Part shown: positions 46,779 through 64,000 of the stretch, in pieces | Position numbering within the stretch: the stretch's first letter is position 1 | How the letters are laid out: the number at the start of each line of letters is the position of its first letter | Assembly (NCBI RefSeq): GCF_005473905.2 | Contig: NZ_CP061336.1 | Location: forward strand, 3,712,501 to 3,776,500 | Direction of reading: 5' to 3' | DNA: 64,000 bases | Source of the DNA: Ruminiclostridium herbifermentans | Lineage (GTDB): Bacteria > Bacillota > Clostridia > Acetivibrionales > DSM-1351 | Notes under the pieces: generated by a model | Databases searched by the model: none | What the model saw: only the letters and a program-made list of their open reading frames with translations | Told to the model about the DNA's origin: nothing | Translations under genes and position numbers: made by a program

Positions 46779-46810
46779 AGCCCCCTCACCCGAAAAGGTA
46801 AGGGGCTTTT
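46779..46810 (+). terminator. Rho-independent terminator after the LuxR-like pseudogene
   Basis: AGCCCCCTCACC pairs with GGTAAGGGGCT around a short CGAAAA loop, followed by TTTTTG. It is GC-richer than other terminators in the window, matching the foreign character of the pseudogene. Confidence 0.85.
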
Positions 46811-47399: not shown

Positions 47400-47401
47400 T
47401 T

Positions 47402-47423
47402 GAGCCAAGGGCAACCCTGGCTC
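47402..47423 (+). terminator. Hairpin terminator after the DUF3592-like gene
   Basis: GAGCCAAGGG-CAA-CCCTGGCTC forms a stem with one bulged A, directly after the stop codon, followed by TTCCTTAATTCT. Strong stem, weak T-run. Confidence 0.65.
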
Positions 47424-47525: not shown

Positions 47526-48560
47526 TCATCCAAAAATCCTAACATATTTCGCAATTGTGTATAGACATAGACTGGTGGTAAATAAAGAATTAATATCCTC
47601 AGCATATGTTATTTGTTCAGTATTATTACTTAACTTATCGTATGTTATATTTCTTTCAGGCACTTGCATATATGCTGAAGGCATCCACGAACCATTAGCA
47701 TTCTGTAATTTTATAAGATTCATGATTCCTATGCTAATGACATCTGCATAATCCTGGCAATCATCCACACTCAATAAAGAAGCTAATCCGGCAGCGGAAT
47801 TAAATGCGTTTAATCTGTTTCTCATAAAGGCATTTTCATCTTTAAACTCATTTAAAATATGTTTAATCACACTTCTCTTCTGTGAACAGTCACTTAAACA
47901 TTGTACCAAAAGCATTCTTAAATAATTTTTATCCTTCCACCAATAATCAGATATATCATTTTCTATTACATTTGATAAATAACGTATATTTTCTTCTTCT
48001 ATCAAATATTTATACTCTTTAAGTGCATTCAGGCAGTTACATGTAACAGTATAATGAGATGAACACCAACCTTCAAACGATTTAGATTTGAGAAAATCCT
48101 GGCTACTACGTTTTTCGTTTAAAAACAAACCATGATTTTCATTAATCGACTTGTATCTATAGGTGCAATAACCACCATCCTCCATTTTGTGTGCTTTGAT
48201 AAACCTAATTATTTGCTCCTTATAGGAGTAATCATTAAGTGATGTCAAAAAAAGCGAAACATTTGCAGTACTATCAGCATCAGTAATAATTTTTTCAGAA
48301 TAACCCCATCCATCACGAAAACTATTCTTTATAAATATATGTGCTTTCATAATGCTTTCATTTTCATTTGGGTCTGCTCCAAGAAATTTCAAAGCACGAG
48401 CAACATTAAAACCAATAAAACCTGTAACCCATTCATTACTTTCACCGACAACAAGCCTAAAATCCGTCCACGAGCCATTTTGTTGTTGTTTCATAAAGAT
48501 ATAGTCCAATGCCTTTTTTATACTAATTAGTGCTTGATAATTTCCCAATTTGTTATTCAT
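47526..48560 (-). CDS. Prenyltransferase/squalene-oxidase-repeat (alpha/alpha-toroid) protein
   Basis: A 344-residue helical protein with squalene-cyclase-type repeats at each end and in the middle: KQQQNGSWTDFRL near the start, HKMEDGGYCTYRY, and KLQNANGSWMPSAYM near the C-terminus. These QxxNGSW repeats build an alpha/alpha toroid, as in terpene cyclases, prenyltransferase beta subunits and complement-like proteins. No DxDD cyclisation motif is obvious. GGAGTGAG precedes the ATG. It is the downstream end of the radical SAM/protease cluster, separated by 339 bases, and could bind or modify the cluster product; this is inferred from position. Confidence 0.65.
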   Translation of the reverse strand: MNNKLGNYQALISIKKALDYIFMKQQQNGSWTDFRLVVGESNEWVTGFIGFNVARALKFLGADPNENESIMKAHIFIKNSFRDGWGYSEKIITDADSTANVSLFLTSLNDYSYKEQIIRFIKAHKMEDGGYCTYRYKSINENHGLFLNEKRSSQDFLKSKSFEGWCSSHYTVTCNCLNALKEYKYLIEEENIRYLSNVIENDISDYWWKDKNYLRMLLVQCLSDCSQKRSVIKHILNEFKDENAFMRNRLNAFNSAAGLASLLSVDDCQDYADVISIGIMNLIKLQNANGSWMPSAYMQVPERNITYDKLSNNTEQITYAEDINSLFTTSLCLYTIAKYVRIFG

Positions 48561-48899
48561 ATTCTCACTCCAGTCTGCTCAAATAAGATTACAAATATCA
48601 ATACTGTGTTTACTTCAATAAATTTGTCACTTAAATTTGCATATTGTTTTTAGAAGGTAAACAATATTCATCATTGTGGACAATTATTGTCTTAAGTTCA
48701 TAACGTGTTACAAAACTCTTAAACTATTAACTCATTCATGATTGTTCCTAGAAATATGTATTTAGATAAAATTTGTTCAAATTATTTGCCCTGTACTATA
48801 TGTCTAAATTCTCATATTTTTCTATAAAATATACTAATTATGGATTAATAGAGTATAACCTTATTCTAATATAATGACTTATTTTCTATTTTTTATATA
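48561..48899. other. AT-rich gap between the toroid gene and a radical SAM gene
   Basis: No convincing gene was seen. On the minus strand there are only very short frames (for example MNELIV from an ATG behind TAGGAAC near 48762, and a 15-codon frame near 48675). None has clear precursor-peptide character. Confidence 0.5.
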
Positions 48900-49919
48900 T
48901 TATTGCATCAATGAACTACAGTATTCGCGTACACTCTCAATTTTTTCTCCCTTGAAAGCCAAACATCCACCTGTACATTCCATATTTTTCCGCCTATTAC
49001 AGTTATTGCACTCCTTCGCTGATGCAGTATTGTAAGCAAATACGTCAAAATAGTTATAAAAATAATCAATTAACTCTTTCATGTTCTTAAACTTTTCTAT
49101 AGAAACTTTATGATGGTCAGACAATCCAAAACATCTTACAGCAGAAAGATCAGGAGCAATATCAATCACAGGTCTACAAATACTGCCTTCTGTCAAGTTG
49201 CAGTGGTGGCCCTTTGCTATCTTTTTAAAACTTTTGAACAATTCAATTTCATCCTCACTCAGTAAACATAACGGCATAGCATTACAATCAAATTTAGGTA
49301 TAATAAAATACTTTTGCAATTCCTGAAAAAACTCAAATACTGATTCTTTCATTCTTCTAAAGTATTCTAAGGCGTTTTTTCCGCGTAGTTCCAAGGTGTT
49401 TGGAACTACAATGGATGTCCTTACACATTTCATTTTATACTTTCTAAGTAATTCTATTATATAATCATAGCTAAAACAAGGCTTGTACATGTTTATACCA
49501 AGGGTAATCTTAGAGGACATATAGTATTCATGAATCATAATATCCAAATTATCTACCATTTTTTTGAAATTATGTTCTCCTATGTCCTCTGGTGCATTAC
49601 AATTAATCAATATACTAAATTTGCTGTTAGTCAATTGCTTTATATACCTGTCAATAAATATGTTGTTTGTGAAAAGTAATACTTTTTCTACTCGTTCATC
49701 TGATGTCAAAATTTCCAATATTTCTTTAAATTGAGGATGTACAGTTGGTTCACCTCCAATAATACCCACCTTATTATTGTTATCTGTCAAAACGAAATCC
49801 ATAGCTTTCCTAAATTTCTCTATTGTCATATTGTTGCTGCTCTTTCCACCAACAAATTCATTTGCAAAACAATATGGGCATCGAAGATTGCAGTACTCTG
49901 TTATCATTATGTTAGCCAT
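48900..49919 (-). CDS. Radical SAM/SPASM enzyme
   Basis: A 339-residue radical SAM protein. The cluster-binding CxxxCxxC is right at the start (EYCNLRCPYC, Cys10, 14, 17), followed by KVGIIGGEPTVHPQF, the glycine-rich SAM site. The C-terminus has SPASM-type cysteines (CRPVIDIAPDLSAVRCFG, ECNNCNRRKNMECTGGC) for auxiliary Fe-S clusters, as in RiPP maturases that join or epimerise side chains. It has GAGG 8 bases before its ATG. It is one of five radical SAM genes in 48.9-59.3 kb. Confidence 0.9.
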   Translation of the reverse strand: MANIMITEYCNLRCPYCFANEFVGGKSSNNMTIEKFRKAMDFVLTDNNNKVGIIGGEPTVHPQFKEILEILTSDERVEKVLLFTNNIFIDRYIKQLTNSKFSILINCNAPEDIGEHNFKKMVDNLDIMIHEYYMSSKITLGINMYKPCFSYDYIIELLRKYKMKCVRTSIVVPNTLELRGKNALEYFRRMKESVFEFFQELQKYFIIPKFDCNAMPLCLLSEDEIELFKSFKKIAKGHHCNLTEGSICRPVIDIAPDLSAVRCFGLSDHHKVSIEKFKNMKELIDYFYNYFDVFAYNTASAKECNNCNRRKNMECTGGCLAFKGEKIESVREYCSSLMQ

Positions 49920-50106
49920 ATCAAATTCCTCGCTTTATATATGCTTATTTTATTCCATTCTTCCTAAACCGTACTTACTAGCTATCTTGGGATTCACTCA
50001 TCAATTATAGCCATATATTCTTCCACAGTCATTCCAAGCGACAAAGCTGCAGAAAATGTCTTTGTAAACTGAGATGCCATTTTTAGGCTTCATCAACATT
50101 TTTATA

Positions 50107-51258
50107 TCACAGCCTTTCAACTGATGATAATACCAATCCAAACTGTTCCTTAATAAAACTATTGATCCTTACTTTTCTGGCTAAAAATATATCATTTCGA
50201 ATCTCTAACAATCTAGACCTTACATGGTAGAATATTCTTTTGTATGTATTACAGCTGAATTCTGGAATGTTCTCCAAGCCATTTTCAATAATAGCGCTAT
50301 TATTACAATTAGCCCTACAAAATTTATACAGTTCACAGTTCTCTTTGCATTTAGAATGGCGAATATCTACCCTACGTACATATTCCTTATATAATTCTGT
50401 TTCAAACACCTCACGAATATTTGAGAACTTCTCAATATTTCCCATGTTGTATTCAATGGTATATGCCCTACCACAAGGATAAATGTCTCCATTATGATCG
50501 ATACTTATCCACCTGTATAAACACATAGAATTTGAGCATGATTTACCTTTATTAAACATAACTGTCTGAACATATTCCTCAAATGAAGGTATACTTATAT
50601 TGCACATTTCATCTCTACTCCAAAAATCAAAAAGAGAGCACATCCCCTCAACATATTCTTTTTCATTCAAAAGAATATCTCTGTTATTCATAGCATTGCC
50701 TGATGCGAACATAGGGTTAAGCCTTAAGGTAAAATTTTTCTCCTTGCTGTAATTATATATTTCTTGCAGACGATTTACATTGTGCGAACCTACTACTGAG
50801 ATAACATTTACATTTAGTCCTTGCTTCATCAAATTTTCAATCCCTCTTAAAGTATCTTCCGTGTGTCCCCTTATCTCATTGTTCGATGGTCCATCAAATG
50901 AAACCTGTATACCTATATTATATTTTTTTAAGTAATGCGAAACGTCATCTGTAATTAATGTTCCATTGCTCTGCATCAAATTTCTAATTTCTTGCTCATT
51001 ATCTGTTCTGTATTTATGTTGTAATTCTAGTACTTTATCATAGAAACTCAAAGGCAGCATCAGTGGTTCTCCCCCATGCCACATATAGGTAACAACCCTG
51101 TAATTGGGTAGTATAGTGGAAAAGCATTTTTCTAGTATTGTATCACTTATAACGTCAGCACTATACCCTCTTTCTGCATGGTAGCAGTACTTACACCTCA
51201 AATTGCACATGTTTGTAGGTTTAATAATTACCGTTATTTCATCAGAGTATTTACTCAC
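50107..51258 (-). CDS. Radical SAM/SPASM peptide maturase
   Basis: A protein of about 383 residues. CxxxCxxC is in PTNMCNLRCKYCYHAERG (Cys18, 22, 25), then YMWHGGEPLMLPLSFY and a VSFDGPSNNEIRGHT strand typical of SPASM/anSME-type maturases. The SPASM region has CLYRWISIDHNGDIYPCGR and KCKENCELYKFCRANCNN. The best start is GTG 51258, with AGAAGGAAG six bases upstream; a TTG at 51288 has no site. It probably modifies the cluster's precursor peptide. Confidence 0.9.
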   Translation of the reverse strand: MSKYSDEITVIIKPTNMCNLRCKYCYHAERGYSADVISDTILEKCFSTILPNYRVVTYMWHGGEPLMLPLSFYDKVLELQHKYRTDNEQEIRNLMQSNGTLITDDVSHYLKKYNIGIQVSFDGPSNNEIRGHTEDTLRGIENLMKQGLNVNVISVVGSHNVNRLQEIYNYSKEKNFTLRLNPMFASGNAMNNRDILLNEKEYVEGMCSLFDFWSRDEMCNISIPSFEEYVQTVMFNKGKSCSNSMCLYRWISIDHNGDIYPCGRAYTIEYNMGNIEKFSNIREVFETELYKEYVRRVDIRHSKCKENCELYKFCRANCNNSAIIENGLENIPEFSCNTYKRIFYHVRSRLLEIRNDIFLARKVRINSFIKEQFGLVLSSVERL

Positions 51259-51405
51259 TTTTATCTTCCTTCTTTTCTCTATTTTCAATATATATAAAGA
51301 ACATAATAATTTTATAAAATGCCTAATTAACTATTCCCTTTACTAAAGCGAATACATATAAATCGGTCAAACTTTGAAAAATAAACCATAATATCAATTT
51401 CCTAA

Positions 51406-51894: not shown

Positions 51895-51933
51895 TTCTTT
51901 ACTCTCCCTTTAAAATTATTTGGTATTATACCA

Positions 51934-52839
51934 TTAATGCTTTCTTACTTTTTGTAAGCAAGGTGGAAATAAAGAACTTTCTTTTTTTAACACATTGTAA
52001 AATCTTTCAAACCCATCCGATTGCATAAAAGATTCGATGTCTTTATGAAGTATGCTTCCAGCACAAAATTGCCCTTCATCAAATCGTGAACACGGATACA
52101 CATAGCCCTCATTGTCTAACAAAAAACCATTCTTACCACCAGGGCACTTATACTCATCTTCAGAATCTGATTTACTTCCTGAAGAAATGGCTCTTCTAAA
52201 GAGCAAAAAAGAGCAATCTGTGTGAATTATGAATTTTTCTTTCCATGTGAATATGTCCTTACACAGTTTGAGATAGAGAGGCAACGTTAATCTCTCTCTT
52301 TCAAACCAAGAGTTATCCAAACCTGGCTTAGGAAGCAACAGAAAGACAACTTTTATTCCAAGCTTTTCTAGCCATTCCATATACTTATCAATATTTATCA
52401 CAAAACTCTTACTGGTAATGACATTTACACCTAAAATGGGCTTAATAATTCCACAATCTTTGAACATTTCTTTTGTTCTTCTCAAAATTTCAAGCCTATT
52501 AGTGTCAGTCATATCACCAACACTGATATATATATCATCAAGACCAGCATCTGCTAGACTAGCAAGTTTGGATTTACTTAATAATACCCCATTAGTTGCC
52601 ATTTTTGTATTTAGTCCCTCTTTTGTAGCGTAGCTGATAATTTCTTCTATATCCGGACGCATTAGTGGCTCTCCACCAGAAAGCAGAAGCATATCACAGC
52701 CTTCCCGTCTTATCTTTGAAATAGCCTTTTTTACTTCATCAATCGCCAGATCATCATCAAAGTCTCTGCTCTGGTAGCAAAAATCGCAATTATAGTTACA
52801 CTTCAAAGTCACTTTATAAGTAACATAACTAACCCCCAT
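51934..52839 (-). CDS. Radical SAM enzyme with shortened C-terminus
   Basis: A 301-residue radical SAM protein: VTLKCNYNCDFCYQSRDF (Cys14, 18, 21) and MLLLSGGEPLMRPDIEEII. In the C-terminal part YKCPGGKNGFLLDNEGYVYPCSR holds SPASM-type cysteines, but the chain stops at FPPCLQKVRKH, without the last CxxxC set that normally follows. So it has a truncated SPASM or a twitch-type auxiliary cluster. It overlaps the M16 peptidase gene by 11 bases. It probably acts on the same precursor as its neighbours. Confidence 0.87.
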   Translation of the reverse strand: MGVSYVTYKVTLKCNYNCDFCYQSRDFDDDLAIDEVKKAISKIRREGCDMLLLSGGEPLMRPDIEEIISYATKEGLNTKMATNGVLLSKSKLASLADAGLDDIYISVGDMTDTNRLEILRRTKEMFKDCGIIKPILGVNVITSKSFVINIDKYMEWLEKLGIKVVFLLLPKPGLDNSWFERERLTLPLYLKLCKDIFTWKEKFIIHTDCSFLLFRRAISSGSKSDSEDEYKCPGGKNGFLLDNEGYVYPCSRFDEGQFCAGSILHKDIESFMQSDGFERFYNVLKKESSLFPPCLQKVRKH

Positions 52840-54073
52840 TCACTTCTTCCCCCTCTAAAACATTCCCAATTACTATTCTTCTTGGATTTGAAAAATAATT
52901 TTTAGCAGTAGAACGAAGGTCTTCAACCGTAATGCTGCTAAACCTTTTATCAGCCTCTTCAAAAATTACTATCTCCCCCGTAAGTATCTCTTCAATTCCG
53001 TAAATACTGCAAACTGATAAAGCTGTTTCAAAATTCCTTGCTATTCCTCCAGAATAACTGCTTTTTAGAAAGTCAAGTTCCATATCTGTTACAACTTCTT
53101 CCTTTATAATTTCTATTTCTTTATCTATTATTTCTATTACCTTTTTTGAATCTTCTGACTTACACTTTGTATAAATCAAGAACACTCCCTCTTCTTTGAA
53201 AGTAAGTACATTTGCCTCAACAGAGTAAACCAATCCATTTTTTCCCCTTAAGTTTTTATATAACCTTGAAAAGCTACCTTCCCCAAGTAGCTTGGCGAGA
53301 GCCTTAAAATAATGACGTTTCGGAAATAAAAAACCTGGTATAGGAAATGCAGTGAATACATGAGTTAGCATAAGATCCCTTTTTACATACACTCTCCCAG
53401 GTTTAATTATTTCTTTCATCGCATTACACTGTATATTTCCTTTTCTTAATTCATATTTTGCCATGTTAACTTCCAAGAAGTAGTTAAGTTCATCAAAATC
53501 CAAATCCCCTGCAAATGAAAAAACTATATTCTGCGGATAAAAATAATCACGATAATGAGAAATTATTTGCTCTTGGTCAATATTTTTTATACAATCTTTG
53601 TATCCTCTTATAGGGTTTCGTAAAGGGTTATGCTGCCAGTAATTCAATGCAAACAAATCCCACATTGCATCACTTGAATTCTGGTAAATCATAATTTCCT
53701 GAAGGATTATTTTTTTTTCTTTTTCAATATCATCTTCAGTAGGTTTAAAATCAAAAATAAGTTTTAAAATAAGTGGTAAGACTTTGTATACATTTTTTTG
53801 TCCTATAACTGTATACAATGTTAAATACTCCCGTGTAGTATTTGCGTTAATTACTCCACCGTAACGCTCCATCTCATAGAAAACATCTTTATATACCTCT
53901 GAGCTGCCAAACAATATATGCTCCAAAAAATGGGTTATGCCATAAATATTGCCATCATTAATGCTGCCAACCTTAATAAAAATTTTAATAGCTACAATAT
54001 CTGTTTGCGGCCTAACAGTCAATATTGTCCTAACTTTATTAGATAATATATTTTTATATACCTTCATCCCCAT
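52829..54073 (-). CDS. M16 family zinc peptidase
   Basis: A protein of about 414 residues with the M16 inverted zinc motif HxxEH intact in GITHFLEHILFGS (about 46-50) and the downstream Glu region (NANTTREYLTLYTVIG). A C-terminal M16 domain follows (FKALAKLLGEGSFSRLYKNLRGKNGLVYSVEAN, read as LLGEGSFSRLYKNLRGKNG and LVYSVEAN). ATG 54073 has GAGGAG 10 bases upstream, four bases before the preceding stop; longer starts overlap that gene. M16 peptidases act as active/inactive pairs in bacteriocin systems (for example AlbE/AlbF of subtilosin), and the next gene upstream looks like the inactive partner. Likely leader removal or product proteolysis. Confidence 0.9.
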   Translation of the reverse strand: MGMKVYKNILSNKVRTILTVRPQTDIVAIKIFIKVGSINDGNIYGITHFLEHILFGSSEVYKDVFYEMERYGGVINANTTREYLTLYTVIGQKNVYKVLPLILKLIFDFKPTEDDIEKEKKIILQEIMIYQNSSDAMWDLFALNYWQHNPLRNPIRGYKDCIKNIDQEQIISHYRDYFYPQNIVFSFAGDLDFDELNYFLEVNMAKYELRKGNIQCNAMKEIIKPGRVYVKRDLMLTHVFTAFPIPGFLFPKRHYFKALAKLLGEGSFSRLYKNLRGKNGLVYSVEANVLTFKEEGVFLIYTKCKSEDSKKVIEIIDKEIEIIKEEVVTDMELDFLKSSYSGGIARNFETALSVCSIYGIEEILTGEIVIFEEADKRFSSITVEDLRSTAKNYFSNPRRIVIGNVLEGEEVNGG

Positions 54074-54077
54074 ATTG

Positions 54078-55391
54078 TCATTTCTCCTCAAAAACACCTT
54101 CAAACCTGCTTTTTTCAACTTCACTATAATTCCCAACTCCAAAATAACACATATTTGATTTCAATTCACAAATTATATCATTCAAATTATTAGGATCAAT
54201 ACTGACCTTTTCATCGGGATTTGAAAACAGTTCTTTAAAATTCAAGCCTAGTATATGTGTTGAGCCTAGGAAAGTAGCTAGTCTTTCTTTTTTCTCAAGA
54301 GAAAGGTAAAATTCTGTGATAAACTTTTCATATGCAATTTTTAGTTCCTGTTGACTAATATCTTTTGCCTCAAATCGGTCAAGTTCATCTTTCAAAGTTC
54401 TGCCTACTACCTCAGGTTCATTACTGACAATCCTAATAATCAGAGTACTTGGCTTTCCTATTTCTACAGAGACATTAACAATATATGCTTCCCCCATCTT
54501 CCGTCTGATATTATCATTCAACCTTTTTTCCAATAAACCCCTGATAAAGTACAAATCGATTATGTCACGGCTGTTAACCGCTTCATATTTGCTTAATGTA
54601 ATTATTGATTTTTCACCTTCAGCAATAAAATATACTTTTTTACTTTCTTGAGAAATAGGTGGCTCGCTAATGTATTCATTTTCTTTGTTCTGTGAAAGAG
54701 AAATACCTTTTAGAGTTTTTAAAATTCGGCTCTTAGGAATATTTCCTGCAACGACCAGACTAAGCTTACCCCTCTTTATATTTTGTTCATAATACTTTTT
54801 TAATGAATCCAAGCTTAATTCCAATTGACTGCTACTCTCTTTTATATCAATATTCGAACTTTTTTGTTCTTCATTTCCGAAATAAATATTTTTTATCCTT
54901 TCCAAAACTTTTTCGCTCGTTAAAGTCTTTGAAGCTTGTGTTAAGTAATTATTCTGACATTCTTTAAACGCGTTATCTGTAATACTGCATTCGAATACCA
55001 ATTCCTTAAGCAAATCACTTGCCAAATCGTAGTCCTTCAATAGGAACTTACTTGTTATAGAACCATAGTTCTGGTTGTACCCGCTTGTGATACTAATCCC
55101 ATTTTCCTGCATAATGGTCTTAATCTCCTTTGCGGAGTACTTTTTTGTATCTGAACCTAACATTATATTAGTTATATACCAGTTGGCTTCTTCTGGATAA
55201 ATTTCCTGATCATACCCACATTTATAGTAAAAACTCATTACTATATTTCTGCTCAAATCATTTTTAATTTGTATTATATCTATGTTTTTGTAACTAAATT
55301 CTTCATACACACTACTCTGAGAAGTATTACAGCCAGTAAACCATATACATATACACACAAGGGATGCTAGCACTGAAATTATACGATTCAT
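54078..55391 (-). CDS. M16 family lipoprotein without the HxxEH zinc site
   Basis: A protein of about 437 residues. A lipoprotein signal (ASLVCICIWFTGC) suggests it is anchored outside the membrane. The M16 fold is recognisable (SYKNIDIIQIKNDLSRNIVM, then KRGKLSLVVAGNIPKSRILKTL, as KLSLVVAGNIPKSRILK, and LEKRLNDNIRRKMGEAYIVNV). The position of the zinc site reads PEEANWYITNIMLGS with no HxxEH, so it is probably a non-catalytic partner. ATG 55391 lies after AAAGGAGGAG; longer starts to 55451 overlap the next M16 gene. It likely dimerises with one of the flanking active peptidases. Confidence 0.85.
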   Translation of the reverse strand: MNRIISVLASLVCICIWFTGCNTSQSSVYEEFSYKNIDIIQIKNDLSRNIVMSFYYKCGYDQEIYPEEANWYITNIMLGSDTKKYSAKEIKTIMQENGISITSGYNQNYGSITSKFLLKDYDLASDLLKELVFECSITDNAFKECQNNYLTQASKTLTSEKVLERIKNIYFGNEEQKSSNIDIKESSSQLELSLDSLKKYYEQNIKRGKLSLVVAGNIPKSRILKTLKGISLSQNKENEYISEPPISQESKKVYFIAEGEKSIITLSKYEAVNSRDIIDLYFIRGLLEKRLNDNIRRKMGEAYIVNVSVEIGKPSTLIIRIVSNEPEVVGRTLKDELDRFEAKDISQQELKIAYEKFITEFYLSLEKKERLATFLGSTHILGLNFKELFSNPDEKVSIDPNNLNDIICELKSNMCYFGVGNYSEVEKSRFEGVFEEK

Positions 55392-55396
55392 TGTAC

Positions 55397-56800
55397 TTAT
55401 TTCTCCTCCTTTAGTGTATGCAAATACTGGGGATTTGCATATGAACCCCAAATATATCCACTAGATATAAGGTATTTCTCCCCAAAATTCTCAATATCGT
55501 TTCTGCTGACTTTTTTAACAATTTTCAAGTATTTCTCTACATGCTCCAAATCTTTTGACGCCCATACTATTGCAATTAATTTCGCTACTTCAGATGGGCA
55601 CTCAAATGCGTTTATCCAATCATATACTATTTTATTCTTTGTACGCTGGAGGAGCTCTTTAGTTATGAAGTAGTAGTTTGTCTTATTTTGAACAACACTT
55701 TTTATATGTTCCTTCGCTTTTAAAATATCCTCTTTTTTTACAGTAGCATATATTACAATAGGTCCATCATGCTTTTCAGATTTATAATATACATAAAACC
55801 TTTTAACATATCCATTCTTCATAATTTCATTATAAAAGGCTGAATTCGAATCGGATGCAGCAGCACAAAAAACGTCTGCTATACATGCATCTTTTTCATC
55901 ATCTGAAAGTCCAGGTCCATTCCATACCATAAGCAGTGTAGTATATATGCCTTCAGAATCTACAGGCAACAATACTTGTCCTTCATCAGTCAATTTTTTT
56001 GTCACACCTTCTGGCTCAATAATCTTGTTTTCACCAGCCCATTCCCCGAATTCATTCTCTATTTCTCTCCTAATGTCAAATCCGGCAATATCGCCAGAAG
56101 CCACAACAAGTGCACGTGATGGTACAAAGTAATGCTCACAGATAGTATATAAATCCTTAATTTCTACATTATTTATTATATCACTATCTCCAATTATATC
56201 CAATTTATACGAATCTTCCCCCCAACTTTTGCTTAAAATATCACTGAAAATGGTATCTGTTATTTCTGCTGTACGATGTTGTGCTTCATATAATATAACT
56301 TTGCGTTCCTTCTCAAATACATCATTATCCAATTTTGGATTTATCATCATTTTTTTTAGAATGCCCAAACCTTGCTTCCAAAACCTTTTTTGAACGCTTA
56401 TTTTAAATATCATATAGTCTTGTGAAGTATAAGCATTTGCCACAGCCCCATTTTCCTGCAGCTGCTTCTGTATCCCTGGTTCTAAAATTAGCATATGCTC
56501 TAAGTAATGAAACAATCCCCTATTATCATTATTCTGGTACAATGAACCACATTTAATTGCACCAACAAAAGTAATTATGTTAGACTTTCCTCCATCTACC
56601 TCTACTACACTTAGACCATTTTCAAAATTGTATTTGTTAAGTTTGGGAATATAGGTATCCATTGAGGTATGGATATTCCCCAGTAGATAATACCCAATAA
56701 GAACCAACCCAAATACTACAGAAATCCATAATTTTTTTACTTTAATTGTGTCAGGCGATAATAAAACATTCCCCTGTGCGTCGGAGTTTATTTTCTGCAC
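55397..56800 (-). CDS. Membrane-anchored M16 family zinc peptidase
   Basis: A 467-residue protein. One N-terminal membrane helix (LWISVVFGLVLIGYYLLG, about 25-42) is followed by an intact HxxEH in GLFHYLEHMLILEPG (about 97-101), with EKERKVILYEAQHR further on. It starts at GTG 56800 with GGAGG seven bases upstream and overlaps the previous radical SAM gene by 13 bases. It is the second active-looking M16 of the cluster, presumably facing outward or inward according to its single helix. Its role may be leader processing coupled to export. Confidence 0.9.
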   Translation of the reverse strand: MQKINSDAQGNVLLSPDTIKVKKLWISVVFGLVLIGYYLLGNIHTSMDTYIPKLNKYNFENGLSVVEVDGGKSNIITFVGAIKCGSLYQNNDNRGLFHYLEHMLILEPGIQKQLQENGAVANAYTSQDYMIFKISVQKRFWKQGLGILKKMMINPKLDNDVFEKERKVILYEAQHRTAEITDTIFSDILSKSWGEDSYKLDIIGDSDIINNVEIKDLYTICEHYFVPSRALVVASGDIAGFDIRREIENEFGEWAGENKIIEPEGVTKKLTDEGQVLLPVDSEGIYTTLLMVWNGPGLSDDEKDACIADVFCAAASDSNSAFYNEIMKNGYVKRFYVYYKSEKHDGPIVIYATVKKEDILKAKEHIKSVVQNKTNYYFITKELLQRTKNKIVYDWINAFECPSEVAKLIAIVWASKDLEHVEKYLKIVKKVSRNDIENFGEKYLISSGYIWGSYANPQYLHTLKEEK

Positions 56801-57786
56801 TGTCTTGCCTCCTGAAGGGTTTGTATTTTAGTTAAGGCACTCATGAACTTTTTTAGATCAGTTAAAGGAACAAATTCTTCCTGTCCATAGTTGGAGATAT
56901 ATTCCTCCCATACCCCTTCACACAACATATTCATTAAACATTCCTTACATATATCTGCTTTTGATTTAATTTCGATTCGCAGTTTCTTCCAGTCAAATTT
57001 TGGTTGGTTTACAGGATCCCCTATCATCTTATAATTTTTAGCTCTTAGTTCTGCAACAAATTCCTCATATCCCTCCAAAAAGCAAAATGGCACAGTTTCA
57101 GTATCAACGTCCATGAAATGTTCCTTTGCATAATTAAGAGTTTCCACCACGCTATCCCTTATACTCTTGTACGTGGGAACATAATTAAAAAATCTCTCAT
57201 CTCTTATACCCGAATGTGGAAAAGCAATATTAATCCTTTTAACTCCTAAACTTTCAAACAGCATTACTGTTTCTTTCAGATAAGAAAAATTAATTTTAGA
57301 CAATACAATTTTCCCAATAATGTTTCCACCTAAACTGACTATGTTCTCAATGCCTTTTACAGTCTCATCAAAACTACCAGCTTTTCTCGTCACTTTATCA
57401 TGTATATCGGAATTGGGACCATGAAGAGCAATTGTGAAAAAAATGGGATAACATGAAACCAATTTTTTAGCAAAATTCATATCAGAAAGCTTTCTTCCAT
57501 TCGTTTGCAGTTGAATTCTATTTATTCCCTTGTTCATTATGTAATCACACAAATTTATAAAGTCTGGGCGAATAGTAGCCTCTCCCCCAGTTATAACTAT
57601 CTCATGGTATTTCTCAGCAGAGTTTTCAAACATTTTGTATGATTCATCTATTTCCTGCATGCATTCGGAAGTTGTCCTATCTAGCGGTTTTTTTATTTGC
57701 TTTAGCTGATTTTTGTTCAACTCGATAATACAGTGAGCACACTGGTTATTGCAACTATAACCGACCTTTAAATCAAAAACAAACAT
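56788..57786 (-). CDS. Radical SAM/SPASM enzyme
   Basis: A protein of about 332 residues. VGYSCNNQCAHCIIELNKN holds the CxxxCxxC (Cys12, 16, 19), and EIVITGGEATIRPDF the SAM site; the rest of the barrel is complete. The C-terminus has only one clear Cys set (DICKECLMNMLCEGVWEEY), like a reduced SPASM. ATG 57786 has GGAG 8 bases upstream; an in-frame GTG at 57795 overlaps it. It lies between an HxsB-like gene and the M16 peptidases. It could fill the place of HxsC, the second radical SAM protein of His-Xaa-Ser systems, though the match to HxsC is not clear. Confidence 0.87.
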   Translation of the reverse strand: MFVFDLKVGYSCNNQCAHCIIELNKNQLKQIKKPLDRTTSECMQEIDESYKMFENSAEKYHEIVITGGEATIRPDFINLCDYIMNKGINRIQLQTNGRKLSDMNFAKKLVSCYPIFFTIALHGPNSDIHDKVTRKAGSFDETVKGIENIVSLGGNIIGKIVLSKINFSYLKETVMLFESLGVKRINIAFPHSGIRDERFFNYVPTYKSIRDSVVETLNYAKEHFMDVDTETVPFCFLEGYEEFVAELRAKNYKMIGDPVNQPKFDWKKLRIEIKSKADICKECLMNMLCEGVWEEYISNYGQEEFVPLTDLKKFMSALTKIQTLQEARQCRK

Positions 57787-57807
57787 TTTCAACACTCCTT
57801 TTATTTA

Positions 57808-59250
57808 TTAACTTTGTCTATCTAACCTGCTTTGCAACATATATCCCATAATGAATTGTTTTACACTTGCCTGTTCATATATTATCTTATTAAAAACATA
57901 ATCAAACACAGTTCTATTCTTTTTACACCTGTTAGTTTTATTAAGCTTAATGTTATAACTTCTCTGTTGTGCATACCCTAAAACAGGGCAAACGCCACAA
58001 AACGGCTTGTATACACAGGAGTCACAATAATATCCTTCTGCAATCGAAGCCATTATTATCTCCTTAGATTTTCTTTTTTGTATCAAGCCATTGTAGTTAT
58101 CCTCAAATACATTACCAATTATGAAATCGTCCATAACCCTAGCTTCATCGCAGCAATATATGTCACCATTATAGTTGTAAACAACCTGTCCCCTAATAGC
58201 TCCACATGGATTTGTTAAATCTAGAAAATCAACATTTTTATTCGTAAGAATTTTTTTAAAAGCTAAAACCACATATCTCTCAGCAATATAAACCCCCTTG
58301 CCCAGCAATTCGAATGTGTAATCAACACATTTCTTCCAAAAATCAATAAACTCTTCCATGGTGTATCCAATAGTATCCCACACTTCTACGGCATAGCCTA
58401 GATAATCCAATGGTTTTATTTGTATCTCTGTTTGCCCCCATCTCACATATTCATCAATAATTTCCTTCCAATATGGTAAGGATTGTCTCGTTGTCACCAT
58501 CAACATCCCAACCTTTATACCTTTCTCAAAACACCTCTTAATCCAATATGTAACCTGCTTGTATGTTCCTACATCACGGTGCACATACTTTCTGTTTTGG
58601 TCATGAACATATTCTGGTCCGTCCAAAGATGTACACAAATGAATGACGTCCTTGTTCTCATAAATAAATTGAAGAAAGTCTTCGTCCATTGCTATAAAGT
58701 TGGAAATAAGGGCAATCTTATATTTTTTTCTATATTTCTGGTTCAATACGGCAGCATATTCGCAAGTTTTCTTAATCAATGGTTTATTCAAGAGAGGTTC
58801 TCCGCCCTGAAATTCAATAGTTATAGTATGATTTGGAGACTGAAAAATAAATTCAAGAGTTCTCTTCAGTGTATCTTCTTTCATATCATAATAGTTGCCA
58901 TCAGTTATAGAAGCAGCCTCTGAATGGCAGTATGAACACCTAAGATTACAACGTATTGTAGGTACAATAATGTGTAAAGCTGCTCCCTTTTCTATACTCT
59001 CATATCTTCTATGGTATTGGTTAATAATGCTACCATAATTTGATGAAGTAATCAGAAGCCCTCTCTGTTCCGCTTCATTATATAGAGTTTCGTCCATATT
59101 TTCCTCTGTAAAATGTCTGTACTCCTCGTCACTAAAAATCATCCACGTACCATGATCTGTAGTAAGCAACTTTTTATTTCCTATGTCCCTACTTCTATAA
59201 AAATTTATCAAATATTTCTTATGTTCAAGTTCTTTTTCTATATAATCCAA
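57808..59250 (-). CDS. HxsB-like radical SAM maturase
   Basis: A 480-residue radical SAM protein closely matching the HxsB pattern. An N-terminal domain has KLLTTDHGTWMIFSDEEY; then LHIIVPTIRCNLRCSYCHSE with CxxxCxxC (about 103-110), ITIEFQGGEPLLNKPLI, and a C-terminal SPASM with YYCDSCVYKPFCGVCPVLGY. HxsB is the maturase of His-Xaa-Ser systems, and the HxsD-like partner is encoded just upstream. The start is TTG 59250, a few bases after the HxsD stop and coupled to it. It probably modifies the precursor peptide of this locus. Confidence 0.88.
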   Translation of the reverse strand: MDYIEKELEHKKYLINFYRSRDIGNKKLLTTDHGTWMIFSDEEYRHFTEENMDETLYNEAEQRGLLITSSNYGSIINQYHRRYESIEKGAALHIIVPTIRCNLRCSYCHSEAASITDGNYYDMKEDTLKRTLEFIFQSPNHTITIEFQGGEPLLNKPLIKKTCEYAAVLNQKYRKKYKIALISNFIAMDEDFLQFIYENKDVIHLCTSLDGPEYVHDQNRKYVHRDVGTYKQVTYWIKRCFEKGIKVGMLMVTTRQSLPYWKEIIDEYVRWGQTEIQIKPLDYLGYAVEVWDTIGYTMEEFIDFWKKCVDYTFELLGKGVYIAERYVVLAFKKILTNKNVDFLDLTNPCGAIRGQVVYNYNGDIYCCDEARVMDDFIIGNVFEDNYNGLIQKRKSKEIIMASIAEGYYCDSCVYKPFCGVCPVLGYAQQRSYNIKLNKTNRCKKNRTVFDYVFNKIIYEQASVKQFIMGYMLQSRLDRQS

Positions 59251-59253
59251 TGG

Positions 59254-59628
59254 TCAATCCATCCTTTCTTGGCTGCAATCTTCATTTTTACAAACTGAAT
59301 TGGTTTTCGCGCATACCAAAACTCGTTCTAGAATTGTTTCTCTGATTTTTCGTTTTTCTATCATCATTTGATTGTAAAAGCTGTAATTTATTACCTCCTC
59401 GTTAAACTCATACACAAGATCTTCTATATTCTTTTGGTTACAACTAATTTCAACAGTAATTATATCGCTCTCTTCATTGTCTTTAGTTATAACAGTGTTG
59501 CAAATACCAATCATGAATTGTGCTACCCCATTTAATACATCTATACTGTAAAGGTCTGATCTATACTTTAGAATAGCTGAGTTTTCTGATACCTTAAGAA
59601 AATTACCTATATGATTCAGTTTTTGCAT
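59254..59628 (-). CDS. HxsD-like protein
   Basis: A 124-residue protein with the layout of HxsD: a central beta strand pair and helix (LYSIDVLNGVAQFMIGIC, TVEISCNQKNIEDLVYEFNE) then a helix with KRKIRETILERVLVCA, comparable to the LLNDYxLRE-type ending of the family. It has extra cysteines at the C-terminus (SVCKNEDCSQ). It has GGGGGA before its ATG and sits directly upstream of the HxsB-like gene. HxsD proteins are thought to assist the maturase or recognise the precursor. Assignment rests on pattern and on the HxsB neighbour. Confidence 0.7.
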   Translation of the reverse strand: MQKLNHIGNFLKVSENSAILKYRSDLYSIDVLNGVAQFMIGICNTVITKDNEESDIITVEISCNQKNIEDLVYEFNEEVINYSFYNQMMIEKRKIRETILERVLVCAKTNSVCKNEDCSQERMD

Positions 59629-59642
59629 TTTATTAATTCCCC

Positions 59643-60857
59643 CTATGTTTTTTTGATATTTAACTTTGAATCAACATTTGATCTATTTCTAATAATTTTA
59701 GCCATTCTTTTGATAGGCATAAAGATTATTGGTAATAGGAAAAGCAAATTCAATATCGCCCTCTGGTTAAGATGCGAAATATCAAACTTGATAAAAAACT
59801 GTAAATCCAATATAATGAGTTGTCCTAAAAAGTACATTACATATACCAAAGATAAAGTCCCATATATGAGCATATAATATTCTTCACGTGTAAACTTTAT
59901 CCCCCTTTTAAGTTTAGGAACTATATCATGGAATATAAACTTGCTGGACCGTTCCTTGAGGTTATATATTCCCATTAAGTCCATTAGGCAATAATACCCA
60001 TCCCATTTCATCAATGGGTTTAAATTAAACACCATCCTCATATAAGAGGTCACAGCCGCCTGATAAAAAACTATACTATAAGACTGCGCGTAAAAGAAAA
60101 AAAATAATATCGAACATACTGAACCAGTTAAAAAATCACATAATGGTCCTACCAAACTGACAATGATTCTATGTTTCCTATCAGCCATCCATATATCACT
60201 AGTATTCACATAAAGCACTGGCATGAACATGTATATCATAATTCCAGCTTCTTTCACTTTACGGTTATAATGATAGCAAAACAAGGCATGCGACAGTTCA
60301 TGGAAAAATACCGGTATCATTACAGCAAAGTAAAGTATGACTATGCTTGTCAATTTTTTATCTACAAGTGGCGGTTTGTCCTTAATATAAAAGTAAAGCA
60401 ATAATCCTGTAACAGATATAAGTATAGCAATAAGCATCCAAATCTTATTAAAAAAAAGGTGTGCAACTTTGTAGTAAACAATTTCAAAAAAGTTTGCTAT
60501 ATGCTTTATAGGAAATCTAATTTCCAGTACCTTTTTCTTTGGCAAGAACTTTTTTGGATCACATTCGTAATTTTCTATAAGCCCTTTTTCACAAAAGTTA
60601 TTAATAATATTTTCTACATAACTTACGCTTACACGATTAAACCTTTCATAAAATGTATAATGAATATCTTGAATTGTCATAGTCCCATCAAGGCAATTCC
60701 AAATAAAATAGTCATATTCGTTTATTACCATATAAATATCATATTTTGAATTTTTTAATATGTATTCAACATTTTCCTTTTTTTTGTTATCAAATATCCG
60801 TATCTCAAAATTATCAATTCTTTTTAACTTTAAACTCAAATCCTTAGATACATACAT
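59643..60857 (-). CDS. Membrane M50-type peptidase with PqqD-like N-terminal domain
   Basis: A 404-residue membrane protein. Residues about 40-105 look like a PqqD-type winged-helix precursor-binding domain (YDYFIWNCLDGTMTIQDIHY, FCEKGLIENYE). Several membrane helices follow, with the zinc motif HELSH (FFHELSHALFCYHYN, about 186) and the second M50 motif NPLMKWDGYYCLMD near 285. Similar putative peptide zinc metalloproteases occur in bacteriocin and spore-killing clusters. It lies 14 bases upstream of the HxsD gene and may cleave the modified peptide in or near the membrane. Confidence 0.87.
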   Translation of the reverse strand: MYVSKDLSLKLKRIDNFEIRIFDNKKKENVEYILKNSKYDIYMVINEYDYFIWNCLDGTMTIQDIHYTFYERFNRVSVSYVENIINNFCEKGLIENYECDPKKFLPKKKVLEIRFPIKHIANFFEIVYYKVAHLFFNKIWMLIAILISVTGLLLYFYIKDKPPLVDKKLTSIVILYFAVMIPVFFHELSHALFCYHYNRKVKEAGIMIYMFMPVLYVNTSDIWMADRKHRIIVSLVGPLCDFLTGSVCSILFFFFYAQSYSIVFYQAAVTSYMRMVFNLNPLMKWDGYYCLMDLMGIYNLKERSSKFIFHDIVPKLKRGIKFTREEYYMLIYGTLSLVYVMYFLGQLIILDLQFFIKFDISHLNQRAILNLLFLLPIIFMPIKRMAKIIRNRSNVDSKLNIKKT

Positions 60858-60866
60858 TTTAAATCC

Positions 60867-61074
60867 TCACTTGAAAATTATAGTACGCAAATCATCACCA
60901 TAAAATATTTTGCTCCCTACTTTGATTTTGTAGAAGTTTATCATGTCAAACTCCTTATTTCTTAGTAATTCTTTATATAGACCCGTTATCTCTGTACTAT
61001 AAAGCTTAGTGAAAACTATTTTTTTGCATAGAATCGATCTCTCTTCCTTATACTCATTGTTAAAAAAATACCAT
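60867..61074 (-). CDS. Small reading frame broken by a T7 run
   Basis: From ATG 61074 a run of seven Ts throws the frame into a stop. With six Ts it would read on for 68 residues (MVFFNNEYKEERSILCKKIV then FTKLYSTEITGLYKELLRNK, ending GDDLRTIIFK) to the stop at 60867, nine bases before the M50 gene. The restored sequence has very protein-like composition. The last 25 codons, from ATG 60944, also have their own strong site (AAGGAG, 7 bases upstream) and could be translated alone. It may be a frameshifted gene, a slippage-controlled gene, an assembly error, or a small peptide of the cluster. I do not recognise the sequence. Confidence 0.4.
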
Positions 61075-61103
61075 TACTATTTGTATATATAACAACAGAA
61101 ATG

Positions 61104-61952
61104 TCATTTCTCCATGTTATTAATATAGTAATAAAGGTTATATTCAGAAACACTTTTTGATAGAATATCATCATAGTATAAGCCTATACCATGAGGGTTA
61201 TATTCATGAAACCTCATTGTGTCAGGATTCAAATTGCTTAATTCCAGATCGTTTACGAAACTGTGTACCCCATGATCAAATGGGAAATATAGAAACTTTT
61301 TAAAATCTTCCTGTCTAAAAGATATATAAAAGCCTCTGCTTTTTGACATTACATTAAGAACACGTTGACAGAAATAATTTGCCAGTTTTGCTTGAACAAT
61401 TTTATTTGTCTGGTAATCTTGATACCTAAAATGAATTTTCAGATTGTACCTTCCATCAAAAAAGAAGTCAATACCCAAAAGGATATCTTCATTTGTAATA
61501 AGATTTAAGATTTCAGTATTATAGCCTTGGGCTGTTAGTGCATCGAAAATAAGGTTTGGTGAGTTAAAAAATTCAAACCATACCTTGACTCTTGATTTCG
61601 ATTGATTCTGATGTAAATCTAATCCTAAATTTATTAGTTTCAATTTATTAAAGTCGGCACCTTCAATTAGACTTAATGCCTTTTCCAAATCAAGTTTTAT
61701 ACCTCTTAGAAGATTAACATTATAGAGAAACTTCATGCATTCCTTATATTTACTAATTAACTCCTGTGAAAAGACTAGGTTAAGTCTCGCTGGGTGGGTT
61801 ATTCCGTTGCTAACCTTATTTGTAAACTCAAGTTTAAAATTATCTATTTTTTTTATTAAATCCAAAAATAAAACTAAAACAGGATTCGTTATTAAGTCAC
61901 CATAAAACATTTCCTCAAGATATGGCTCAAGTATTTCGTATTCCTTCAGCAT
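61104..61952 (-). CDS. PatF/TruF/LynF-like peptide prenyltransferase
   Basis: A 282-residue protein resembling the ABBA-fold peptide prenyltransferases of cyanobactin clusters. The pattern KLINLGLDLHQNQSKSRVKV, followed by a bulky helical insert, then LLGIDFFFDGRYNLKIHFR (FDGR near 163-166) and a C-terminal LYYYINNMEK, parallels the G-x-D-L, D-F-x-F-D-G-R and L-Y-Y-Y landmarks I recall for TruF/PatF. Such enzymes put an isoprene on Tyr, Ser, Thr or Trp of peptides. GGAGGAG is near the ATG. It lies between the glycosyltransferase and the M50 peptidase. If correct, this is an unusual partner for a radical SAM locus. Assignment is from memory of the motif pattern only. Confidence 0.55.
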   Translation of the reverse strand: MLKEYEILEPYLEEMFYGDLITNPVLVLFLDLIKKIDNFKLEFTNKVSNGITHPARLNLVFSQELISKYKECMKFLYNVNLLRGIKLDLEKALSLIEGADFNKLKLINLGLDLHQNQSKSRVKVWFEFFNSPNLIFDALTAQGYNTEILNLITNEDILLGIDFFFDGRYNLKIHFRYQDYQTNKIVQAKLANYFCQRVLNVMSKSRGFYISFRQEDFKKFLYFPFDHGVHSFVNDLELSNLNPDTMRFHEYNPHGIGLYYDDILSKSVSEYNLYYYINNMEK

Positions 61953-61985
61953 AATATCTCCTCCAATTCTTCAAAAAGATTATTA

Positions 61986-63710
61986 TCAGCTAATACTTTT
62001 AACCCTTATTAAATCAATCAATCCAATCTTAGTCAGTACATTTTTTCCTGAGAGTATACCAACCGCATTATGACATGTAGGAAGGCACCATTTACTTATT
62101 AGACACCCATGACATTCTGAGACTTCAGGTGTATTTATCCCTGCATATAGTGAATAATCATTAATCGTGTTTATCTCTTTTATATACCCCTTAAACCGCC
62201 CTATGCATTTATAAGCTAAACACAAAGGAACTCCCTCAAACAGCAAATAGAACTTTTTTGCTATAGAAAATTCTATTAACTTATTAAAGATTAATTCTAT
62301 TTGATGGAATAAATAATTATTATCAATATAAACAGAGGATTGTCCCAGCTGTTCAAGTGCATCACCAAGGTTAACAATAAAATTACGAGTGAAAGCTAAA
62401 CTCTGTTCAATATAACTTTCAATTAAATCTACATCCAAATTCATACTGTGGATACGAATGAAAAACTTTCCTATAGTATGTGTTATCTTTACAAGATTTT
62501 TTTTATAAGTTTTATTTCCTATATCCTTAGAATAAATATCTAAAATAAATGTAACAGGATATTCTGACAGTATTTTAATAATAGAATCATTATAAACAAT
62601 ACTTTCATATGTACAACTTAATTCAAAAAAGTCAAATCCATATTTAAAAGCAATTGGAATTGATTCAATCAGAAAATTAACCCTATTGAAATTTGCATTT
62701 CTTAAAATCAATCCGCATAAATAATACGATTTAGCCTGTATTCTAAAACCCTTAAGCTTTTCCTCCCACTCCTGTAAATTCCTATACTTCTCAATCACGT
62801 TATATATATAGCAGGTATTCCAAATGGTATCCTCTGAGATTTCATTATTCAATAGACATATATCTTGTACAAACCTTTTACGATACCACTGAAGTATAGA
62901 TTTTGCACGAATATACTGTTTTCTTATAATTAGCTTATTCACCAGTTCTACAAAGTTTTTACTGATATAGTTATCAAAAACACATTCAGAGTATCTCTCA
63001 AAAATTTTATCAAATTTTTCATAATCGTTTTTATTACTGTAATAATGAAGCAGATTCATATATAAATTTGCGGAATTACTTGACCGCTTTGAATTATTTT
63101 CTCTCTCTAATTGTATCTCTGCAAGAGCATTATAATATATATCCTTTTCTCTTAATCTCCCCGGTGAATTTACATTTAGAAGATTTAAGAATGGCTGACC
63201 TGTTTTACCAACTCTTCGCCCAAACTTATCACACAAATATTCATGAATAATCCCATTGTAATAAAATCCTTCATGGTTTTTGAACAAAACAACCCTTGTA
63301 TTTTCCTTCCCTATAACTCTGTTTTTTATATAGAAATCATAGTCATTGCTTTGACTACGTTCACATACACAGCTTTCTATATTAGCACTAAAACATGTAT
63401 TATCATACCTATGTACTTTTTCGAAAAAATCCAGATTCACAACCAGTTCATCAGCATCTATGTTCATAATGTAATCACAAGATGCAAATGAGTTTGCATA
63501 ATTACGTGCTTTACTGAAATCATTGCACCACTCGAAACTAAATATCTTATCCGTATACCGATTGACAATCCTCACTGTATCATCAGTTGAGCCAGTATCG
63601 ACAACAATAATCTCCTGTACATAATCATAAACTCGATCTAAAGTTGTCCCAATAATGTCACCTTCATTTTTTACAATCATACAAAGACTAATAGTTTTAA
63701 TACGTTCCAT
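61986..63710 (-). CDS. Family 2 glycosyltransferase with helical middle and SPASM-like C-terminal cysteine motif
   Basis: A protein of about 574 residues. The N-terminal 200 or so are a GT2 glycosyltransferase: ISLCMIVKNEGDIIG, EIIVVDTGSTDDTVRIV, YIMNIDADELV (DxD metal site), FYYNGIIHEYL. A helical, TPR-like middle follows (LYMNLLHYYSNKNDYEKFDK). Near the C-terminus ECHGCLISKWCLPTCHNAVG has a C-x2-C-x5-C-x3-C spacing like a SPASM Fe-S motif, although the protein has no radical SAM domain. ATG 63710 is preferred (GGAA about 9 bases upstream); ATG 63761 has no site and overlaps a small frame. It probably glycosylates the cluster peptide. Confidence 0.82.
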   Translation of the reverse strand: MERIKTISLCMIVKNEGDIIGTTLDRVYDYVQEIIVVDTGSTDDTVRIVNRYTDKIFSFEWCNDFSKARNYANSFASCDYIMNIDADELVVNLDFFEKVHRYDNTCFSANIESCVCERSQSNDYDFYIKNRVIGKENTRVVLFKNHEGFYYNGIIHEYLCDKFGRRVGKTGQPFLNLLNVNSPGRLREKDIYYNALAEIQLERENNSKRSSNSANLYMNLLHYYSNKNDYEKFDKIFERYSECVFDNYISKNFVELVNKLIIRKQYIRAKSILQWYRKRFVQDICLLNNEISEDTIWNTCYIYNVIEKYRNLQEWEEKLKGFRIQAKSYYLCGLILRNANFNRVNFLIESIPIAFKYGFDFFELSCTYESIVYNDSIIKILSEYPVTFILDIYSKDIGNKTYKKNLVKITHTIGKFFIRIHSMNLDVDLIESYIEQSLAFTRNFIVNLGDALEQLGQSSVYIDNNYLFHQIELIFNKLIEFSIAKKFYLLFEGVPLCLAYKCIGRFKGYIKEINTINDYSLYAGINTPEVSECHGCLISKWCLPTCHNAVGILSGKNVLTKIGLIDLIRVKSIS

Positions 63711-63736
63711 TCTATTAAATTTCCATTCATGTATCG

Positions 63737-63871
63737 TTAGTAATAGTAATACATTTGACATAGGTAATTTAATATATCAATATTTCTATCGCAATATACA
63801 CTATCACCTATCACTGTAACGACCAAGAGTCCCTCAATTTCCTCTGGAGCAGTGACTTGAAGTCTCATCAT
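63737..63871 (-). CDS. Small reading frame ending in four tyrosines, possible precursor peptide
   Basis: A 44-residue frame from ATG 63871 (MMRLQVTAPEEIEGLLVVTV then IGDSVYCDRNIDI, ending CQMYYYY). AGCAGGA lies just before its double ATG. Its start overlaps, as ATGA, the stop of a preceding frame (SKELIQNFLRID ... HTRAGK), so it may be translationally coupled. It ends 26 bases before the glycosyltransferase start. The acidic leader-like centre and Tyr-rich tail would suit a Tyr-modifying pathway, but the tail is low-complexity DNA and the frame may be chance. Confidence 0.25.
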   Translation of the reverse strand: MMRLQVTAPEEIEGLLVVTVIGDSVYCDRNIDILNYLCQMYYYY

Positions 63872-64000
63872 TTTCCTGCTCTAGTATGCTGATAAAGGAT
63901 TTTGAAATACATTCTTTTTTCTGTATCTATTCTAAGAAAGTTCTGAATTAACTCCTTTGAATTACTCCATTAATTTTAAGGTAGAATACACCCTCTTATA

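Follow-up and report, generated by a model that had tools for sequence, protein, structure and literature searches.

The 64,000-nt window analysed here (the whole stretch, G000:C1:3712501-3776500 of a single-contig genome of 4.82 Mb) carries near its end a run of 14 intact genes, all on the minus strand (47526-63761). Together with two precursor genes just past the window end, this run probably forms one operon making a ribosomally synthesised and post-translationally modified peptide (RiPP) that bears a terpenoid and is modified by radical S-adenosylmethionine (SAM) enzymes. The RiPP reading is backed by the two precursor genes, with which the run begins at its 5' end, and by the neighbouring exporter. 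The first-pass annotation, made from the letters of the window, had proposed an undescribed-looking RiPP cluster and pointed past position 64000 for a precursor and a transporter. Two precursors passing the leader family NF038399 and an adjoining exporter were found there, in support of that proposal, and the objection it had raised against itself, that the genes might belong to unrelated housekeeping families, was not borne out by profile searches.

Precursors, exporter and layout of the gene run

The window ends just before the operon start, and the run continues on the minus strand with two tandem precursor genes (Table 1). Both leaders pass NF038399, the Os1348/NHLP leader family (64.5 and 62.3 bits, cut-off 40), and are identical to each other at 52 of 71 residues, whereas the cores differ. 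The two cores are rich in His, Ser and Tyr and end in Y-x-D-W; neither precursor contains Cys, and the single Trp of each is its final residue. Short, Cys-free cores with this ending set the pair apart from five other NHLP precursors of the order, which end in acidic tails. Each precursor tail holds two HxS motifs. Composition-keeping shuffles reach two such motifs at frequencies of 0.023 and 0.187, jointly 0.013, with tails that were delimited after they had been seen; the motif is therefore taken as a hint and not as proof. The exporter genes are transcribed divergently from the precursors.

The third NHLP leader of this genome lies elsewhere, at a second NHLP-leader locus (L136, G000:C1:3608001-3626000) with its precursor at 16164-16466 on the minus strand and several radical SAM genes, one of them HxsC-like (29% identity and 122 bits to the HxsC of the present cluster). 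NHLP precursors similar to that of L136 occur in three genomes of the same genus (G005, G006 and G007).

The same-strand run comprises the 14 genes plus the two precursor genes, with a gap of 270 nt before the glycosyltransferase gene. Twelve or more overlapping minus-strand genes had been claimed initially; number and strand hold, but only some of the 14 genes overlap, the intergenic gaps ranging from -65 to +339 nt. The genes for the HxsC-like protein, the three M16 proteins and radical SAM 3 overlap without a break, and downstream of radical SAM 3 the gaps widen from 39 to 339 nt. Two genes of the run had gone unnamed, those for the class II terpene cyclase (47526) and the lipoprotein (51406), as had the precursors, the exporter and the isopentenyl diphosphate (IPP) isomerase outside the window. 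The G+C content of the individual genes is 0.29-0.35, against 0.337 for the window.

Two candidate RNA elements accompany the run. A stem-loop, its outer stem 14 bp long, separates the precursor genes from the glycosyltransferase gene; its 121-nt region has a z score of -4.21, and none of 200 shuffles was equally stable. A stem-loop between a precursor gene and the genes downstream of it is a common device for a higher yield of the precursor. The last gene is followed by a hairpin resembling an intrinsic terminator, which is weak evidence taken alone, since the region contains 11 terminator-like sites where 6.9 would be expected. Between this hairpin and a gene resembling short-chain dehydrogenases/reductases, positions 45300-47400 of the window contain short open reading frames (ORFs) and, judged by eye, apparent fragments of LuxR-like and transporter-like genes.

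Table 1. Features of the gene run and of the adjoining region. Positions are those of the window unless marked L009 (L009 position = window position - 59499).
Feature	Position	Strand	Evidence or remark
Intrinsic-terminator-like hairpin	47402..47423	minus	after last gene; 9 pairs, 6 G-C
MstE-like class II terpene cyclase, 344 aa	47526..48560	minus	PDB phmmer match; DADST at residue 94
Radical SAM 1	48900..49919	minus	CNLRCPYC; Cys-rich C-terminus
Radical SAM/SPASM 2	50107..51288	minus	nearest NCBIfam DynA 192.9 bits, sulfatase maturase 189.2; under cut-offs
Predicted lipoprotein, 162 aa	51406..51894	minus	lipobox-like N-terminus by eye; no family over cut-off
Radical SAM 3, short	51934..52839	minus	SPASM 23 bits, cut-off 21.5
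M16 protease	52829..54142	minus	HFLEH
M16-like, zinc motif lost	54078..55451	minus	no HxxEH
M16 protease	55397..56800	minus	HYLEH
HxsC-like radical SAM	56788..57795	minus	nearest HxsC4 NF038332 112.1 bits, cut-off 500
HxsB radical SAM maturase	57808..59250	minus	TIGR03978 388.8 bits, cut-off 370
HxsD-like protein	59254..59628	minus	TIGR03976 32.6 bits, cut-off 50; directly upstream of HxsB
M50 metalloprotease, weak N-terminal PqqD-like part	59643..60857	minus	HELSH, NxxP....DG
LynF/TruF/PatF-like ABBA peptide prenyltransferase	61104..61952	minus	PF19156, TIGR04445; PDB match FjoF 5.4e-21
Glycosyltransferase family 2 (GT2), SunS/GmaR-like, C-terminal CxxCxxxxxCxxxC tail	61986..63761	minus	PF00535 passed
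Stem-loop, 14-bp outer stem	63976..64000 and 17 bases beyond (L009 4477-4518)	minus	between precursors and GT2
Precursor 1	L009 4533-4835 (G000:C1:3776532-3776834)	minus	100 aa as listed, 93 aa from inner ATG; tail DHRSYSTHGSASYGDW
Precursor 2	L009 4917-5255	minus	112 aa; longer tail: YHSNDS (18-nt repeat), then HHNS, NHNS, LYIDW
FtsX/MacB permease	L009 5777-8320	plus	divergent from precursors
HlyD adaptor	L009 8531-9841	plus	divergent exporter
ATP-binding cassette (ABC) ATPase	L009 9838-10557	plus	divergent exporter
Type 1 IPP isomerase	L009 10568-11131	plus	starts 10 nt after ABC ATPase

The Hxs module and the other radical SAM enzymes

All five radical SAM enzymes announced by the first-pass annotation pass PF04055 (57.6-76.8 bits, cut-off 29.5) and keep the CxxxCxxC motif. 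Its subdivision into HxsB, three further SPASM-type enzymes and a short one did not hold: the Pfam SPASM cut-off of 21.5 is passed by the proteins at 50107 and 51934 only, HxsB falls just short at 21.2, and the protein at 56788 is HxsC-like instead. HxsB/HxsD-type maturation, likewise proposed, is upheld for HxsB, which exceeds the TIGR03978 cut-off, and less so for the weakly matching HxsD-like protein. The gene order hxsD-hxsB-hxsC is the same as in Nostoc sp. C057 (one record compared), so that the cluster resembles known Hxs systems both in an HxsB over its cut-off and in HxsC-like and HxsD-like partners in the order D-B-C. It differs from them in its precursors, since Hxs systems have long HxS repeats and here NHLP leaders precede tails with two HxS each. 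No match to the HxsA family and no HxS repeat was found in either precursor. No reaction for HxsB was found in the open-licence literature text searched.

The neighbourhoods of HxsB relatives were compared at 25 loci from named genomes ranging from archaea to myxobacteria (tblastn, E<=1e-3; 7 of the loci are shorter than 12 kb). HxsC was found at 19 of them, HxsD at 3, the ABC ATPase at 3 and the GT2 at 1. Matches to radical SAM 1, 2 and 3 occurred at 13, 13 and 21 loci, respectively, and are read as cross-matches within the superfamily. The PatF-like enzyme, the three M16 proteins, the M50 protease, the cyclase, the lipoprotein, the precursors, FtsX, HlyD and the IPP isomerase were matched at 0 of the 25. 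The Hxs D-B-C genes thus represent a known module in new company, because these loci bring HxsC and HxsD but not the rest. The condition named initially as refuting the proposal, that the genes do not travel together in relatives, is therefore partly borne out: HxsC and HxsD co-occur with HxsB, but PatF, M16, M50 and cyclase never do. An ORF with at least six HxS, the usual kind of precursor, is present at 15 of the 25 loci.

By identity, the nearest HxsB proteins are archaeal (38-41%; Woesearchaeota and Diapherotrites, L047, L048 and L049). A short-core Hxs system is encoded in a metagenome-assembled genome labelled Chloroherpeton thalassium (L053), where two 59-aa HxS precursors (167-346 and 460-639), containing Cys and two HxS each, adjoin HxsB and the HxsC most like that of the cluster (195 bits). 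At another locus (L013, G004:C1:1110447-1114598), a radical SAM protein scoring 191 bits against the HxsB model lies between a 429-aa protein without Pfam match and two genes resembling short-chain dehydrogenases/reductases.

Terpenoid, protease and glycosyltransferase genes

The predicted cyclase is related most closely to MstE among PDB entries (phmmer; 6sbf, E 1.5e-15 over residues 12-312). Its next relatives there are two cyclases of the squalene-hopene type (361 and 365 aa), followed by an entry named 'Prenylcyclase'; 8pak matches at 4.1e-12 and 6ij1 'Prenylcyclase' at 7.7e-8. The motif DxD[ST]T is the acid motif of class II terpene cyclases, and it is kept in the protein as DADST (DADTT in MstE). 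The enzyme at 61104 had been called PatF-like. It passes PF19156 (72.3 bits, cut-off 28.8) but stays under the cut-off of TIGR04445 (83 bits against 140), and its best PDB matches are FjoF, Fl3F and SmiF (E 5e-21 to 1e-17), with PirF, LimF and PagF lower. By profile and by PDB sequence matches it thus belongs to the same family as the cyanobactin F-family (PagF, LimF, PirF) and MppC, from which it differs in its TIGR04445 score and its radical SAM context. According to PMC12715784, MppC is an ABBA enzyme whose substrate is a lanthipeptide carrying a Nif11-type leader; it transfers geranyl to Trp of that peptide, with a preference for the macrocyclised form.

The nearest precedent for the pair is NctPC, in which, according to the review PMC13290415, an ABBA prenyltransferase is fused to an MstE-like cyclase; geranylgeranyl is transferred onto a peptide Trp and then cyclised. 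The pairing of an ABBA-fold peptide prenyltransferase with an MstE-like cyclase is alike in both systems. However, NctPC is one fused protein, whereas two separate proteins are encoded here, accompanied by the IPP isomerase, the Hxs module, the M16 and M50 proteases and the GT2. The isomerase passes NF002995 (156.8 bits, cut-off 127) and TIGR02150 (118.6, cut-off 105.8). It is not a housekeeping enzyme in this order, because only 3 of 58 genomes, the present one included, have a family member over the cut-off. The genome has three polyprenyl synthetase matches.

Terpenoid genes were also seen at two other loci. In a genome of the same genus, L134 (G009:C8:137501-157500) carries a type 1 IPP isomerase, a polyprenyl synthetase, two UbiA and two squalene-hopene-type cyclases (Pfam). 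Elsewhere in the present genome, L135 (G000:C1:4060001-4080000) encodes a 1177-aa protein (1493-5026, minus) in which a squalene-hopene-type cyclase (PF13243 297 bits, PF13249 95 bits) is fused to a MacB/FtsX permease part. This joining of a terpene cyclase to an exporter adjoins an ABC ATPase, UbiA, a polyprenyl synthetase and several radical SAM genes.

Judged by their zinc motifs, two of the M16 proteins (HYLEH in 55397, HFLEH in 52829) look active and the third (54078), which has none, looks inactive, as had been proposed. Two of the three have YfmH/YfmF as their nearest NCBIfam families, and the inactive-looking one matches none. Subtilosin-type sactipeptide systems contain the M16 pair AlbE/AlbF, likewise an active and an inactive M16 protein beside radical SAM maturases; here, by contrast, there are three. 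The M50 protease passes PF02163 narrowly (28.1, cut-off 27.2) and has HELSH. That part of the proposed PqqD-M50 protease stands, but the PqqD portion reaches only 17 bits against a cut-off of 23.4. For the predicted lipoprotein, a role in immunity or as a carrier is a guess.

The catalytic part of the GT2 is alike to those of SunS and GmaR (E 8e-10 and 2e-21, respectively), SunS being the S-glycosyltransferase of a glycocin and GmaR an enzyme of flagellin. The SunS family TIGR04195 was not reached (40.4 bits, cut-off 350), and a TPR match scored 13.4 bits. Unlike the SunS/GmaR enzymes, the GT2 carries a Cys-motif tail, and the cores here offer no Cys for S-glycosylation. The SPASM-like tail attributed to it is real as a motif (Cys 550/553/559/563), but the tail matches no Pfam family, and one chance-level model (HypA, E 0.02-0.03) was the outcome of the NCBIfam search. 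A stretch of the tail is weakly similar to the HxsC C-terminus (hmmsearch 7.4 bits, hhalign probability 10.6), and a low-confidence model suggests beta-alpha repeats. The tail is possibly a decayed radical SAM domain.

Distribution, competing explanations and the proposed pathway

The distribution of the genes was examined across genomes of the genus, order, class and phylum, with genomes outside the phylum covered through HxsB, plus plasmid and phage records. HxsB relatives at E<=1e-45 occur in 3 of 391 class genomes and the inactive-looking M16 protein at E<=1e-6 in 3 of 341, own genome included in both counts; the GT2 is matched at E<=1e-25 in 26 of 381. The cluster looks strain- or species-specific and was perhaps acquired, though its G+C content is close to that of the window.

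Several observations weigh against a single operon for such a peptide. Among the genomes searched, no second one carries the full set. Of 11 genomes of the genus and 398 of the phylum (TIGR04445), the own one alone has the PatF-like enzyme, and the same is true of the cyclase among 291 class genomes (E<=1e-8); beyond residue 263 of the GT2, its own gene alone matches among the 27 places listed from the 381 class genomes. Several assignments stay under family cut-offs: the HxsC-like protein (TIGR03977, 74.4 against 267.9; HxsC4, 112.1 against 500), the HxsD-like protein (32.6 against 50), the PatF-like enzyme in TIGR04445, and the M50 protease among NCBIfam families (daptide protease NF041824, 124.7 bits against 300). 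The cyclase is under the Pfam cut-offs as well (PF13243 19.8 against 26.1, PF13249 12.3 against 26.2, cut-offs that MstE itself is not established to pass), and its single-sequence model (pLDDT, the predicted local distance difference test, 34.1) does not confirm an alpha/alpha barrel fold. It is moreover the last gene, behind the 339-nt gap, and the isomerase sits in the divergent operon; in another genome (G409) the isomerase locus contains, by eye, no terpenoid or RiPP genes. Finally, the HxS motifs are few, and their count in precursor 2 is no higher than expected by chance.

Some of these points would fit an operon limited to prenylation, with the class II cyclase and IPP isomerase constituting a separate small terpenoid pathway adjacent by chance. 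The gap ahead of the cyclase and the divergent position of the isomerase are compatible with this, the isomerase of G009 lies within a terpene cluster, and PMC13290415 describes C5 or C10 donors as general for cyanobactin prenyltransferases, for which by inference no cyclase would be needed. Yet the cyclase is followed by the terminator-like hairpin, short ORFs and apparent gene fragments, the ORF list read as far as 42 kb contains no terpenoid gene, and in NctPC both folds are likewise combined on a peptide (PMC13290415). We regard a chance neighbourhood as unlikely. The widening of the gaps after radical SAM 3 could instead fit two joined RiPP systems, one comprising the precursors, GT2, PatF, M50 and HxsD-B-C, and the other radical SAM 1-3, the lipoprotein and the cyclase, its precursor lost or too small. 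No relatives having both halves were found, and five radical SAM enzymes are a large number for cores some 20-40 residues long. On the other hand, the HxsC, M16 and radical SAM 3 genes overlap unbroken, the three longest gaps hold no convincing small ORF and the genome's third NHLP leader is encoded at another locus, which leaves a fusion of two systems somewhat less likely again.

An ordinary His-Xaa-Ser system that has collected extra genes and makes a plain Hxs peptide of unknown role would account for the HxsB score and for the D-B-C order shared with Nostoc. It is very improbable in view of the missing HxsA match and HxS repeat, the HxsC and HxsD scores under their cut-offs, and the NHLP leaders, which are unlike those of the HxS-repeat precursors at 15 of 25 related loci.

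Under the preferred reading, one operon for a terpenoid-bearing, radical-SAM-modified peptide, we infer the reactions, their target residues and the order of the steps as follows. The two precursors would offer different short cores behind related NHLP leaders. HxsD-HxsB-HxsC, together with some of the remaining three radical SAM enzymes, may act on carbon centres of the core, by cross-linking or epimerisation. The ABBA prenyltransferase would prenylate the side chain of an aromatic residue or of His, most likely the C-terminal Trp that both cores share. The IPP isomerase could boost the supply of dimethylallyl diphosphate, which a chromosomal prenyl diphosphate synthase would extend, and the MstE-like cyclase would then protonate the chain and fold it into rings. 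Ser, Thr or Tyr may receive a sugar from the GT2. Lastly, the M50 and M16 proteases would cut off the leader, the FtsX/HlyD/ABC system would export the product, and the lipoprotein may confer immunity.

Each activity has a known relative. The claim that the combination with prenylation would be new holds only in part: prenylated RiPPs and NctPC are known, the latter with prenyl transfer and cyclisation on a peptide (PMC13290415), but in the open-licence literature text searched no paper joins HxsB, or the Hxs module, with a prenyltransferase; combinations with glycosyltransferases were not searched for. It is conceivable, at a distinctly tentative level, that the product would be the first Hxs-type radical SAM peptide to bear a sugar as well as a cyclised terpene, in a host which we take to be an anaerobic Ruminiclostridium, made by separate enzymes for prenyl transfer and cyclisation, with a dedicated IPP isomerase adjusting the donor pool and a glycosyltransferase tail derived from a decayed radical SAM domain for peptide recognition.

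If the preferred reading is true, one small peptide undergoes prenylation, class II cyclisation of the terpene and glycosylation as well as radical SAM modification, and the cluster links radical SAM RiPPs to peptide meroterpenoids. Compared with the usual long HxS repeats of Hxs systems, short cores with two HxS would lend themselves far more readily to analysis. A separate prenyltransferase and cyclase with two natural substrates would also make the order of prenylation and cyclisation testable in vitro.

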